Below, in pieces: positions 5,938 through 31,153 of a stretch of DNA of 64,000 nucleotides (position 1 is its first letter; every line of letters begins with the position of its first letter). Both the position numbers and the translations under genes were made by a program. The notes below the pieces were generated by a model, which saw only the letters and a list, made by a program, of their open reading frames with translations, was not told where the DNA came from and made no database searches. Origin of the DNA: a virus. The DNA lies in the IMG/VR virus record IMGVR_UViG_3300047469_000054, positions 1 to 64,000 of that record; one strand, 5' to 3'.

Positions 5938-6434
5938 CAAGCTACCTAAAGATTGAAGCATTCCGCGCGCTGGCCTATGCTGAAGCATTCCTTTCCGAGT
6001 ATGAATCGGTGAAGAATTCAGTTATTGCGGCAGATAAAGCCAAGGTGGATATTTTCCAGAAAAATGCCTTTGAGCATATTCTCCAAGAAGTCGCAACCGG
6101 AGAAAAGGTTAGATTCCTCCTCGTCTTTATGCGCAAGCCAAGCGTTGCCGAAGCATCGCGCCGCGTTAGCGAGCGTATCGATGAAATGAGAAACGATGCG
6201 AATAACCATACTTGGCTGTTCAAAGATCAACGTCGCCATCGATATGCTGGCTATGGCGCCATTTGGCATCATCCACGGAAATGGCCCGGAGATTTTCCAT
6301 ATTGGCTACGCAATACAGCTTGCACCTTGCGCGATGCTGGAAGGTCCGGCGTTGACGTATGCATGGCCGTTGATTCCGACGAATTCAAGGTTTTCAAATG
6401 GATCGTGAGGAAGCAAGACGGCAATGCGGAATAA
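5934..6434 (+). CDS. Hypothetical protein
   Basis: 166 residues; the ATG overlaps the previous stop (ATGA). Helical N-terminal half rich in Ala, Glu and Lys; C-terminal half has many aromatic and basic residues (RKWPGDFPYWLRN). No known domain seen. Confidence 0.8.
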   Translation: MTSYLKIEAFRALAYAEAFLSEYESVKNSVIAADKAKVDIFQKNAFEHILQEVATGEKVRFLLVFMRKPSVAEASRRVSERIDEMRNDANNHTWLFKDQRRHRYAGYGAIWHHPRKWPGDFPYWLRNTACTLRDAGRSGVDVCMAVDSDEFKVFKWIVRKQDGNAE

Positions 6435-6888
6435 CATTTTCATGGATACATTTTGCGAGCTTGACCGGCTGCCAAATGACGACCTTGAAGACAGGCGTCG
6501 GTGCAATATCTTTTCGGCGCTATCAGGGGTGGCGGAGATGGACGGTTATGTCTATATCGCGACACCATACACAAAGTATCCATACGGTCAGCATAAGGCC
6601 GCTACGGTTGCCGCTTTCGCAACGGCGGAGCTTATGCGTGGTGGTATTCGCGCATTCTCCCCTATCGTGCATGGCCATCAGATTGCTAAGCATGGGTTCG
6701 ATCCGCTTGACGTTGATTTCTGGATTAGCGCCAATGCTGGATTCCTATATGCAGCTAGTGCCTGTATTGTCGTCAAGATGAAGGGCTGGCAAGAGAGCAA
6801 GGGGATCGCCGCCGAAATCGAACACTTCTTGACAGCCGGTAAACCGATAGTCTATATTGGCGATGAAATCATAGGAGGCATTGAGTAA
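6424..6888 (+). CDS. DUF1937 family protein (deoxyribosyltransferase-like fold)
   Basis: 154 residues. From residue 41 it matches DUF1937: YVYIATPYT, an AAELMRGG-type helix (ATAELMRGG), SPIVHGHQIAKHG, FDPLDVDFW, then WQESKGIAAEIE. The family is related to nucleoside 2-deoxyribosyltransferases, so a role in nucleotide metabolism is plausible but unproven. An alternative start at 6538 would give just the family core; the upstream start has AGGA about 10 bases away and overlaps the previous gene by 11 bases. Confidence 0.8.
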   Translation: MRNNIFMDTFCELDRLPNDDLEDRRRCNIFSALSGVAEMDGYVYIATPYTKYPYGQHKAATVAAFATAELMRGGIRAFSPIVHGHQIAKHGFDPLDVDFWISANAGFLYAASACIVVKMKGWQESKGIAAEIEHFLTAGKPIVYIGDEIIGGIE

Positions 6889-6986
6889 TGATGGATACAA
6901 TTGTTAAAGTTTCGCTTTATTTTATTTTTGGTGTCATCGTGACTATCGCATTTTTATCTGCTGGCGGGCAGCTGATAGAATGGTAG
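6888..6986 (+). CDS. Small membrane protein (32 aa)
   Basis: ATG overlaps the previous TAA by one base; ATAGGAGG precedes it. Nearly the whole product is one transmembrane helix (YFIFGVIVTIAFLSAGG). Function unknown. Confidence 0.65.
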   Translation: MMDTIVKVSLYFIFGVIVTIAFLSAGGQLIEW

Positions 6987-7174
6987 TATTTTGGAAGCGT
7001 TGGCGCCGATCTTCAGACACATACGTTAATGCGATGCCAACGGCGCTTGAACTTGCCGCCAAGGTGAAGGATCTTGTGTTTGACCGATCCGCGCCAACTG
7101 AATCGGAGCAACTGACGGCGGCATATCACATCATTGCCTTGGAGAGCATAAGGAAAAACAGATGCAAAAAATGA
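6980..7174 (+). CDS. Hypothetical protein (64 aa)
   Basis: Overlaps the small membrane protein by 7 bases. Basic N terminus (FWKRWRRSSDTY), then a helical segment with an ESEQLTAAYHIIALE pattern. No family recognised; the ribosome-binding site is weak. Confidence 0.6.
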   Translation: MVVFWKRWRRSSDTYVNAMPTALELAAKVKDLVFDRSAPTESEQLTAAYHIIALESIRKNRCKK

Positions 7175-7377
7175 TCGAATCACTTCGCCGTCATTGGCGA
7201 ATTTCACAGATCGCCTATGAGATCAAACGCCAAACGAAATGGCGGCCAACGCTGAAGCAGCAATATCAATATTGCTCTGCTATTTATGACAACTGGTTGC
7301 AGTACGAATCGAAATGGGATGATGGATTTGACGCTTCCGCTATCGCGGCGGAGGAGATTTCATGTTGGGAGTATTGA
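7162..7377 (+). CDS. Hypothetical protein (71 aa)
   Basis: Start preceded by AAGGA. N-terminal basic helix (MIESLRRHWRISQIAYEIKR), C-terminal acidic helix. Overlaps both neighbours, part of the early small-gene run. Confidence 0.7.
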   Translation: MQKMIESLRRHWRISQIAYEIKRQTKWRPTLKQQYQYCSAIYDNWLQYESKWDDGFDASAIAAEEISCWEY

Positions 7378-7856
7378 CGTTGATGGAAGATAAGAAGGAT
7401 CGCGATTTTCTTGACAAGATCGCAACTACGGAGCATGGCGAATATATGGACGCTGTGAAAAAACTTGTCGGTGAAGGAAATATTTCCCCAAATTATGGCC
7501 GTGATCTTATTGAGGCCGATCCGCCTCTTACGTCCGGCGTAGGTGCACTCAGGAACATCAAGCATGACGGCTTGCCTGTAGCGGGATACGCTAAGTCTGT
7601 ATCCGATGAAGCGTTGCAGTTGGTCAACGAAGGCAAGGGACTGCAAGAACGAGTTTTGCGCTATTTGGATAAGCTGACTGCGTTACAGAACGTAAATGGA
7701 GCAGGGCACTTCGTAAGCGTGCCAAAACCACGTTACGATGGGCGCGCTCTTGCGATCGCCCGCACGCATATCGAAACAGCATTCACCTTTGCCGCACGGG
7801 CAGTATTCCAGCCCGAAGGCATTCCGCGAATCAAACTACCGGAGGACACCAATTGA
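7362..7856 (+). CDS. Acb2/Tad1-like cyclic-nucleotide sponge (anti-CBASS/anti-Thoeris candidate)
   Basis: 164 residues, GAGGAG five bases before the ATG. Residues about 70-155 have the Acb2/Tad1 hairpin pattern: VAGY, then EALQLVNEGKGLQERVL, a short loop, DGRALAIARTHIETAF (about 126-141) and RAVFQP. In that family two helices form oligomers that sequester signalling cyclic (oligo)nucleotides and so block CBASS or Thoeris immunity. This copy carries an extra N-terminal segment of about 70 residues (DKKDRDFLDKIATTEHGEY), whose role is unknown. Family recognition is by motif memory; a profile search would settle it. Confidence 0.72.
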   Translation: MLGVLTLMEDKKDRDFLDKIATTEHGEYMDAVKKLVGEGNISPNYGRDLIEADPPLTSGVGALRNIKHDGLPVAGYAKSVSDEALQLVNEGKGLQERVLRYLDKLTALQNVNGAGHFVSVPKPRYDGRALAIARTHIETAFTFAARAVFQPEGIPRIKLPEDTN

Positions 7857-8446
7857 TGGAACCAAGAATAATCGGCCTTACGGGTCGCCGCAATGTTGGC
7901 AAGAGCACTGCCGCTGACATTCTGGTGAAGCATTTTGGATATCGCAAGATCCATGTATTTGAAGGCGGCAAGGCCGCTGCTTATGCATGGTTCCTGTATG
8001 TCACTGGCGACTCTGATGAAGCGGCGCGAATGGTCAATGGCGACCTGAAGGACAAGCCGCATCCACTATTACCGTTGACACTAAGCCGTCGCGGCGAAGA
8101 GCATGCAAGTCCGCGCTATTTCATGGAGCATTTCGGCCATTTCATGCGCTTCACAATGGGCGTTGAGTGGACGCTTGGAATGGAGGTGGAGCGCGCTAAG
8201 CGGCTGTATGGCGACAATGTTAAGTTGGTGTTTGAGTCTGTTGTATATGAGAATGAAAATTTCAAGGAGCTTGGCGGAGTGCTGGTAAGGCTGCTGCGCC
8301 CTGGTTTCGTCAGCCCTGAAGGCGTAAGCAGTGACGCTCATGCGGACAAGATTGTGCCGCACTTCACATTGAAATCGAAAAACACTAAAACGCTTGAAAA
8401 AAATATATTCGCATTAATGAGCTTTCTACAGCGCCAAGAGGAATAG
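7856..8446 (+). CDS. P-loop kinase, dNMP-kinase-like
   Basis: About 196 residues. Walker A is GLTGRRNVGKSTAA at residues 7-20; an AYAWFLYVTG helix, a central substrate-binding region (PRYFMEHFGHFMRF) and a VFESVVYENE strand follow. This resembles phage deoxynucleoside-monophosphate kinases and adenylate-kinase-like proteins that phosphorylate precursors for phage DNA. GGAGG lies 10 bases from the ATG; a TTG three bases upstream is possible. A hairpin follows the stop. Confidence 0.75.
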   Translation: MEPRIIGLTGRRNVGKSTAADILVKHFGYRKIHVFEGGKAAAYAWFLYVTGDSDEAARMVNGDLKDKPHPLLPLTLSRRGEEHASPRYFMEHFGHFMRFTMGVEWTLGMEVERAKRLYGDNVKLVFESVVYENENFKELGGVLVRLLRPGFVSPEGVSSDAHADKIVPHFTLKSKNTKTLEKNIFALMSFLQRQEE

Positions 8447-12642: not shown

Positions 12643-12656
12643 TTATGGGAGACACT

Positions 12657-13217
12657 ATGAAAAAAGAGCTTGACGTAGAAAACCGTCCGGAATCATTTAA
12701 CGAGCGAATTATGCAGTATATGCCCGGCCTCAACAGTGCTGCACGGCGATGGTATCCAGGGCAATCGGAGAAAGCATCTGAGCTAGTTGTAGATACGATT
12801 GTGTATGCCCTGGAGAATTGGCGAGGATATCGAGAAGAGGCGGACGCGTTTCACTCTTGGCTAATGTGGCGCATGCGAGATTGCGTAACGAAGAAGCGAC
12901 GCGGAGAGTTTAGGCATTCGCAAACGTTCGTAGATAGCGGATTGCTTCAGGTTCCGCATTCGGGAGAAGAGCGCGGCGACCATGTGGAGAATCTTAGCGA
13001 TAGGTTCGATGGTGGATGTCAGCCAAGCCAAGAGGATTACGTAGCGCTAAAGCAAACTATCGAGAAGATAAACAAGGAGCGCTATGGTCATGATCTTCTG
13101 AAGGAGGCTGCCGGATATTCACTATCTGAGTTGACGGAGAATAAAGTATCAAAACAGGCTGTGCAACAAAGAATTGCGGCGACACGTAAGCGATTGGGAG
13201 CAAGTCCATATGCATGA
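12657..13217 (+). CDS. Sigma-70-like factor, copy 1
   Basis: 186 residues; GGGAG five bases before the ATG at 12657 makes it better than the ATG at 12645. Helical region-2-like part (residues 12-85: NERIMQYMPGLNSAARR, then ELVVDTIVYALENW, WLMWRMRDCVTKKRR) and a C-terminal region-4-like HTH (LSELTENKVSKQAVQQRI, about 155-172). It may redirect RNA polymerase to phage promoters, or act in another way with this fold. A diverged copy follows at once. Confidence 0.7.
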   Translation: MKKELDVENRPESFNERIMQYMPGLNSAARRWYPGQSEKASELVVDTIVYALENWRGYREEADAFHSWLMWRMRDCVTKKRRGEFRHSQTFVDSGLLQVPHSGEERGDHVENLSDRFDGGCQPSQEDYVALKQTIEKINKERYGHDLLKEAAGYSLSELTENKVSKQAVQQRIAATRKRLGASPYA

Positions 13218-13719
13218 TTCCAGGCCACCCGAATTTGATGAACGGGTGATGAAGTATTTCCCAGCTATTTTGAAGTGGTGCAATAAAGCATCCGGCGATA
13301 GACATATCGCTTACGACATGGCTGTTGATGTTGTAGAATATTGTTTGGTGCATTGGCAGAATTTTCGCGAAGATGGCGGCTTTTATAATTGGCTGCACTG
13401 GCAGTTTCGCGGATATGTCAGTAATCAGGCTCAAAAGCATAAGCGCGATATGCACAATAGAGGCGGCGCTTTGGTGGCAATCGACGCCTACACACCTAAT
13501 GAAGCTAGTGCTTTCCTGCCTCACACACAAAGTCACGCCGCCAAGGTTGAGGCGAGCACAACAATCGCCATGTTATCCAAGGTGAAGGATTTCGACATGG
13601 CGTATCGTCATGCTGAAGGCGAAAGCTATGTTGACATCGCAAAGGATTACAGCCTCTCGCATCAACGTGTACAACAGCGCGTTGAGAAGTTTCGGGAGGT
13701 TGCCAAGAGGAAGATTTAG
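13210..13719 (+). CDS. Sigma-70-like factor, copy 2
   Basis: 169 residues, overlapping copy 1 by 8 bases; GGGAG precedes the ATG. Same order of blocks as copy 1: DERVMKYFPAILKW, DMAVDVVEYCLVHWQNF, NWLHWQFRGYV, then a C-terminal HTH (YVDIAKDYSLSHQRVQQRV). Strong divergence but conserved layout indicates an old tandem duplication. Only the region-2/region-4 pattern is seen; promoter specificity cannot be read. Confidence 0.7.
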   Translation: MHDSRPPEFDERVMKYFPAILKWCNKASGDRHIAYDMAVDVVEYCLVHWQNFREDGGFYNWLHWQFRGYVSNQAQKHKRDMHNRGGALVAIDAYTPNEASAFLPHTQSHAAKVEASTTIAMLSKVKDFDMAYRHAEGESYVDIAKDYSLSHQRVQQRVEKFREVAKRKI

Positions 13720-30555: not shown

Positions 30556-30884
30556 TGTCATGGGAACGTACGGCTTATGTTGGTCAGCATGTCGTGTGCA
30601 TCGATAATAGTGGGCCTCTAGAAAGCCTTAAAGGAGAGATTGCACCAACTATTGGAATCGTATATACGATCAGACGGATAGAGTATGTCGAATCTTGGGA
30701 TAAGACTGGCATATTGTTGGCGGAAATTATCAATCCAAGGTTTGATACATCCATTGGATTAATGGAGCGATTAATGCCATCTGAATGGTTTCGCCCCGTT
30801 GATGAGACCAAGCTTGATGTATTCAGAACATTGCTTAAGCCGGTTGATGAAGAGACTAAACGCAAGATTCTGGAGGATGCATGA
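30555..30884 (+). CDS. Conserved phage protein of unknown function
   Basis: 109 residues. GEIAPTIGIVYTIRRIEYV, ILLAEIINP, then SEWFRPVDETKLDVFRTLL form a pattern I have seen in many rhizobial phage/prophage proteins (SH3-like N-terminal part). Function unassigned. Confidence 0.78.
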   Translation: MSWERTAYVGQHVVCIDNSGPLESLKGEIAPTIGIVYTIRRIEYVESWDKTGILLAEIINPRFDTSIGLMERLMPSEWFRPVDETKLDVFRTLLKPVDEETKRKILEDA

Positions 30885-31153
30885 CCAATTACCCGGATAG
30901 ATATGTGATCACTGGAATCGTAAAGGATGGCCAGCATAAAAATGAACGCGTCTATCTATATTGGACGGAAGAGGGCGGAGGCTGGTGGCAATGGGGTCCA
31001 GATGGATGGGCGTATCGTTTCGAAAATAAGTCTGGCGCCAGATTTGAAGACGCCATGCGGTGTGCAAAGAAAGGCGTTGGCCCATATTACTATTCAGTAC
31101 ACCCTGAATCTGTCGAGGTTTATGCTACGCCAGCAATCGTCACGGTTCGTTAG
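30881..31153 (+). CDS. Hypothetical protein (90 aa)
   Basis: ATGA overlap. Trp/Tyr-rich beta protein (RVYLYWTEEGGGWWQWG). Unknown. Confidence 0.72.
   Translation: MTNYPDRYVITGIVKDGQHKNERVYLYWTEEGGGWWQWGPDGWAYRFENKSGARFEDAMRCAKKGVGPYYYSVHPESVEVYATPAIVTVR

Follow-up and report, generated by a model that had tools for sequence, protein, structure and literature searches.

Positions 7362–7856 of the window very likely encode an Acb2-like hexameric nucleotide sponge that acts on CBASS-type signals and carries an accessory appendage at its N-terminus, as judged from its sequence and by analogy with solved Acb2 proteins. The window denotes the whole stretch of DNA analysed, 64,000 bases of a virus record of 66,915 bases. 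The features of the locus are the following.

6424–6888, plus strand: DUF1937/nucleoside deoxyribosyltransferase-like gene, the syntenic upstream neighbour (PF09152, E 5.3e-20)
6980–7174, plus strand: small ORF of 64 aa without a family match (Pfam, PHROG, synteny)
7162–7377, plus strand: small ORF of 71 aa, no family above cut-off (Pfam, PHROG)
7350–7356, plus strand: ribosome-binding site GGAGGAG, 5 nt upstream of the ATG at 7362
7362–7856, plus strand: Acb2-family sponge gene with N-terminal extension, 164 aa (ORF, Pfam PF24729, coding score)
7362–7562, plus strand: N-terminal extension, residues 1–67, with predicted helices 11–22, 25–37 and 43–51 (coding score, AlphaFold2, homology and fold searches)
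7563–7853, plus strand: complete Acb2 domain, residues 68–164, comprising the HDGLPVAGY lead, helix 82–109, a loop, helix 127–148, RAVFQP and a C-terminal tail (Pfam, profiles, predicted fold)
7587–7589, plus strand: Y76, equivalent of T4 Acb2 Y8 and PaP2 Acb2 Y11 (profile alignments)
7635–7637, plus strand: K92, equivalent of PaP2 Acb2 K26 (alignment, profile A1)
7689–7739, plus strand: loop between the two long helices, approximately residues 110–126, longer than in close alphaproteobacterial relatives (alignment A3, helix limits)
7806–7808, plus strand: F149, equivalent of T4 Acb2 F82 (alignment, profile A2)
7856–8446, plus strand: deoxynucleoside monophosphate (dNMP) kinase gene with ATG at 7856, the listed ORF beginning with TTG at 7853 (phrog_139, 1.2e-19)

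By its sequence, the ORF at 7362–7856 is a genuine gene, preceded by a good ribosome-binding site. Its start overlaps the 71-aa ORF by 16 nt, and its stop codon TGA (7854–7856) has one base in common with the ATG of the dNMP kinase gene. The two C-terminal elements pointed out in the initial annotation, DGRALAIARTHIETAF and RAVFQP, were both located, at residues 126–141 and 146–151, respectively.

In the profile search for the Acb2/Tad1 domain that the initial annotation had proposed, Pfam PF24729 (Acb2_Tad1_hairpin) matched residues 75–150 with an E value of 6.6e-12 and 45.9 bits, above the curated cut-off of 27, and PHROG phrog_717 matched at 7.9e-9. Across the 66,915-base record, the sponge was the sole match to this hairpin family, and no NCBIfam family matched it. 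As a single sequence, the sponge reached solved Acb2 at E values of 1.7–1.8 and ranked under unrelated matches. Two profiles were then compared with known structures, A1 built from 10 sequences (the sponge and nine phage homologues) and A2 from 71. Profile A1 matched Acb2 8h2j at 6.5e-9 and T4 Vs.4 7uq2 at 7.2e-8, and profile A2 matched the same PDB entries at 1.1e-10 and 5.1e-10, respectively, covering the whole domain including the GY motif. In contrast, Tad1 structures were matched by profile A2 only at E 0.36 and over 24 residues. The Acb2 link can also be walked by single sequences, since an 82-aa protein with 57% identity to the sponge core (L017) directly found PaP2 p26, PaMx43 and PaMx35 among 77 phage records by tblastn (3e-4).

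Because the profile values stand at about 1e-10 for Acb2 and 0.36 for Tad1, and because the best PDB fold matches are Acb2 as well, the sponge is Acb2-type and not Tad1-type on sequence profiles and predicted structure. Of the Acb2/Tad1-like assignment given initially, membership in the hairpin family therefore stood, whereas the Tad1 likeness fell away. Both the profile scores and the helical prediction for the N-terminus led to rejection of a Tad1 reading of the sponge.

AlphaFold2 with 71 sequences yielded a mean pLDDT of 75.9, with the long helices 82–109 and 127–148 mostly at high confidence. The predicted model has the Acb2 architecture of two long antiparallel helices and a short N-terminal lead. 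The six best PDB matches in Foldseek were all Acb2/Vs.4 chains, with probabilities of 0.99–1.00 and weak E values (0.067–0.28). With VIA-align, the top three structures were 8h2x (Z 8.5, rmsd 2.9, 81 aligned), 7uq2 (Z 8.5, 2.8, 82) and 8h2j (Z 8.4, 2.8, 86), while unrelated helical hairpins followed from Z 7.8 down; owing to this small margin, the fold alone is insufficient for the family call, and sequence decides. In BFVD, Mycobacterium phage MalagasyRose has a 195-aa protein with the Acb2/Tad1 hairpin, which shows that long members of the family occur elsewhere as well.

The residues corresponding to nucleotide contacts were retained. Among 71 aligned proteins, Y76 was conserved in 70, K92 and R146 in all 71, and F149 in 67; P151 was likewise kept in the sponge. 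Y11 and K26 of PaP2 Acb2, the counterparts of Y76 and K92, are functional residues of that protein. In the 7uq2 chain, residues 9 and 83 align with Y76 and F149; we infer that chain numbering equals the published numbering plus one. In T4 Acb2, according to PMC12657218, cyclic dinucleotides are no longer bound after the Y8A change; F82 stacks on the ligand, and binding is reduced in F82C.

The sponge differs from the other aligned proteins at four columns of strong conservation, namely V80 (Q in 67/71), Q95 (E in 70/71), T142 (M in 67/71) and A145 (N in 64/71), and nucleotide binding could be altered through these substitutions, as far as the alignment indicates. Compared with Acb2 of PaP2 (p26, PDB 8H2J) and T4 (Vs.4, PDB 7UQ2), the sponge shares the whole hairpin domain, the GY lead, a lysine in the first helix, the RA(V/I)xQP end and the predicted fold, but has 67 more N-terminal residues, approximately 25% identity and a different inter-helix loop sequence.

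The initial annotation had also described about 70 extra residues absent from small sponges. These correspond to residues 1–67, with the boundary at about residue 68, and solved Acb2 proteins, which are compact hairpins, are without them. The first 70 codons scored +0.418 bits per codon; 188 windows read in the wrong frame did not exceed −0.039, and 94 windows in the right frame averaged 0.310. The frame is open, and the closest ATG, GTG or TTG upstream of the LPVAGY motif lies 39 codons away, so that the protein must carry an extension unless translation begins at an unusual codon. On this sequence evidence, residues 1–67 are translated and coding-like. A wrong start codon was dismissed on the ribosome-binding site, the 39-codon gap and the coding score.

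The extension was predicted as helical with moderate confidence, with pLDDT values per ten-residue block of 43, 66, 73, 81, 74, 59 and 56 in the 71-sequence model; residues 1–70 alone, predicted from the single sequence, had a mean pLDDT of 59.7. Foldseek with this poor single-sequence model of residues 1–70 gave a best E of 2.6, and the segment may possibly adopt a known fold. Homology searches of the N-terminus gave three chance matches only (tblastn of residues 1–67 against phages, E 2 to 9), nothing in Pfam at E up to 10 and nothing in PHROGs. Scans of viral contigs with exact 8-residue peptides, both from the whole protein and from residues 1–70, confirmed nothing, a design that misses diverged relatives. 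No standalone or duplicate copy was present in the window or the compared loci. As far as these sequence comparisons reach, the N-terminus is lineage-specific.

Relatives of the sponge were collected from several sources. A tblastn search of 50,697 phage records gave 16 matches, which all covered less than 80% of the query and came from Rhizobium, Rhodobacter or Brevundimonas phages; nine of the 16 were taken into the comparison. IMG/VR yielded 107 relatives from 141 candidates, of which 80 were kept, representing 70 distinct proteins, and a profile search of genome contigs with A3 added 7 relatives from 135 candidates. Together with one plasmid, this amounted to 97 relatives (80 viral, 9 phage records, 1 plasmid and 7 genome loci), some of them redundant (e.g., L080–L082).

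According to the chosen starts, 56 of the 70 distinct proteins begin 4–11 residues before LPVxGY and 9 begin more than 20 residues before it, while 5 were unplaced by the motif. Independently of start choice, 12 of the 97 relatives lack any ATG, GTG or TTG within 15 codons of the motif, which forces an extension. When the tails of 15 proteins were compared (the sponge and 14 relatives with longer starts), several types were distinguished, and the tail of the sponge fitted none of them (best E 0.11, over 10 residues). One type carries FPLEGIPLAG (L002, L004, L006, L088 and L091) and another CxGS...CGxCxRC (L009, L010 and L064). Forced extensions with unrelated sequences in relatives thus indicate that N-terminal tails vary repeatedly in the Acb2 family. 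No description of N-terminal variants of Acb2/Tad1 sponges was found in the literature searched, which lay outside the primary Acb2 and Tad1 papers.

Like the sponge, the homologues of Rhizobium phages RHEph10, RHph_N1_10, RHph_X66 and B1VFA and of a Pararhizobium qamdonense plasmid have a tail preceding the Acb2 core, with 32–117 residues before LPVxGY, but their tails are of the FPLEGIPLAG or CxGS...CGxCxRC type, unlike that of the sponge. The small homologues of alphaproteobacterial phages (RHph_X2_26, 30681–30929, 82 aa; RcWaterboi gp42, 96 aa) share the Acb2 core and differ by having no extension and a shorter loop. FPLEGIPLAG and its variants open the tails of several rhizobial Acb2 homologues and resemble the domain's own GLPVAGY lead; from its sequence, the motif is possibly a self-mimic or a partner motif. 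The CxGS...CGxCxRC tail, judged by its cysteine pattern, may bind metal.

The closest syntenic phage found was Rhizobium phage RHph_X2_26, with the order DUF1937 gene, 82-aa Acb2 and dNMP kinase, and with 42%, 39% and 42% identity, respectively, to the window proteins. It was the only one among 96 loci tested in which acb2 has DUF1937 and dNMP kinase neighbours. The gap between the DUF1937 gene and acb2 is only 17 bases in RHph_X2_26, whereas in the window this interval holds the two small ORFs, followed by the N-terminal extension. On this comparison of gene order, the simplest story is that the extension was gained in the window lineage via insertion and in-frame joining; it is possible that it was instead lost in RHph_X2_26.

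Several further observations were made in this neighbourhood. The DUF1937–acb2 pair is common to the window phage and RHph_X2_26, and the neighbour of acb2 in RHph_X2_26 (L008/L099; 6125–6664 in L099) was deposited as a 'TIR domain-containing protein', while Pfam identifies it as DUF1937/DUF4406, nucleoside deoxyribosyltransferase-like. The ORFs at 6980–7174 and 7162–7377, upstream of the sponge, are coding-like, yielded no relatives and are absent from RHph_X2_26; they are possibly further counter-defence genes. The sponge gene sits in a block of nucleotide and DNA metabolism, with Sak4-like, SSB-like, Cas4-type exonuclease, helicase and primase genes on its 3' side. Two adjacent overlapping genes at 12645–13217 and 13174–13719 both match phrog_1740, a phage sigma-factor family, and represent tandem sigma-like regulators.

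Megablast of window positions 1–25000 against phages matched nothing, a viral-contig scan with the dNMP kinase confirmed no relative, and no DNA methylase was found in a search of the record. The window helicase shares 62% identity with the RHph_TM3_3_14B helicase and 61% with its RHph_X2_26 counterpart, and on this basis the host most likely belongs to the Hyphomicrobiales.

Four other readings were weighed against an Acb2-type sponge with an appendage. That translation starts close to the Acb2 core, the extension being an artefact of annotation, is almost certainly wrong: most relatives do have chosen starts only a few residues before LPVxGY, but the start-codon gap, the strong ribosome-binding site and the N-terminal coding score stand against it. 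A Tad1-like sponge also taking TIR-made signals (gcADPR), its N-terminus replacing the Tad1 beta-sheet domain, is highly improbable. Acb2 and Tad1 do belong to one Pfam hairpin family, and Tad1, according to PMC12043709, is a hexameric sponge with an N-terminal domain ahead of the hairpin; this domain is a beta-sheet, and the ligand of Tad1 is gcADPR. However, the profile match to Tad1 is non-significant, the sponge carries the N-terminal GY motif common to Acb2, and in place of an antiparallel beta-sheet the N-terminus is predicted as helical, with moderate to low confidence. A degenerate or re-purposed Acb2, with the hairpin fold retained and nucleotide binding lost or changed, is very unlikely. 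The four departures and the longer inter-helix loop would fit it, but Y76, K92, R146, F149 and P151 are retained, the frame is open with coding-like codons, and column 145 differs among validated Acb2 proteins too (C in T4, I in PaP2; profile A2 alignment).

The last alternative is a fusion of two counter-defences, in which the helical N-terminal domain would act on a separate partner, such as a host defence protein, RNA polymerase or another signal. It is unlikely, although the coding-like codon usage, the partly folded prediction (blocks of 73–81 over residues 21–50), the two small coding-like ORFs in the same interval and the recurrence of separate extension types in relatives, one opening cysteine-rich, speak for it. 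Residues 1–70 are without a relative or fold match in the searches, no standalone copy occurs in the compared loci, and recurring unrelated tails equally fit neutral N-terminal drift. A bifunctional sponge is likewise unlikely; in this reading, six copies of a new helical domain would crown the Acb2 hexamer and either control access to the dinucleotide pockets or target another component of host defence. The initial suggestion that the N-terminus alters ligand or oligomer state or adds a target thus gained no support, and the unrelated tails in sister sponges are as compatible with an appendage that changes fast as with a second function. For the N-terminus, a variable appendage is more likely than a second function.

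For the Acb2-like sponge with an appendage, the following mechanism is proposed. In Acb2 hexamers, according to the review PMC12043709, cyclic dinucleotides occupy inter-subunit pockets and cyclic trinucleotides the central channel. By analogy, the sponge would assemble into a hexamer. Its inter-subunit pockets, with Y76, K92 and F149, would bind cyclic dinucleotides and its central channel probably cyclic trinucleotides, so that CBASS-type effectors of a Hyphomicrobiales host would stay inactive during infection. The mostly helical 67-residue appendage was probably acquired in the window lineage, downstream of the syntenic DUF1937 gene and upstream of the Acb2 core. As the pocket tyrosine directly follows the N-terminal lead, an attached tail would, by geometry, sit near the pocket; the appendage probably decorates the hexamer, its six copies lying close to where the dinucleotide pockets have their N-terminal lip, and probably affects stability, localisation or solubility rather than acting as a second sponge.

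If the recurring N-terminal modules are functionless, the sponge is an ordinary member of its family whose tail varies. If these unrelated modules are functional, they would show how one sponge core diversifies in alphaproteobacterial phages, where it might come to take up other signals, act on protein targets or evade Panoptes-type sensing of sponges. Should the bifunctional reading be true, swappable N-terminal modules would be a general route for rhizobial phages to retarget one sponge core.
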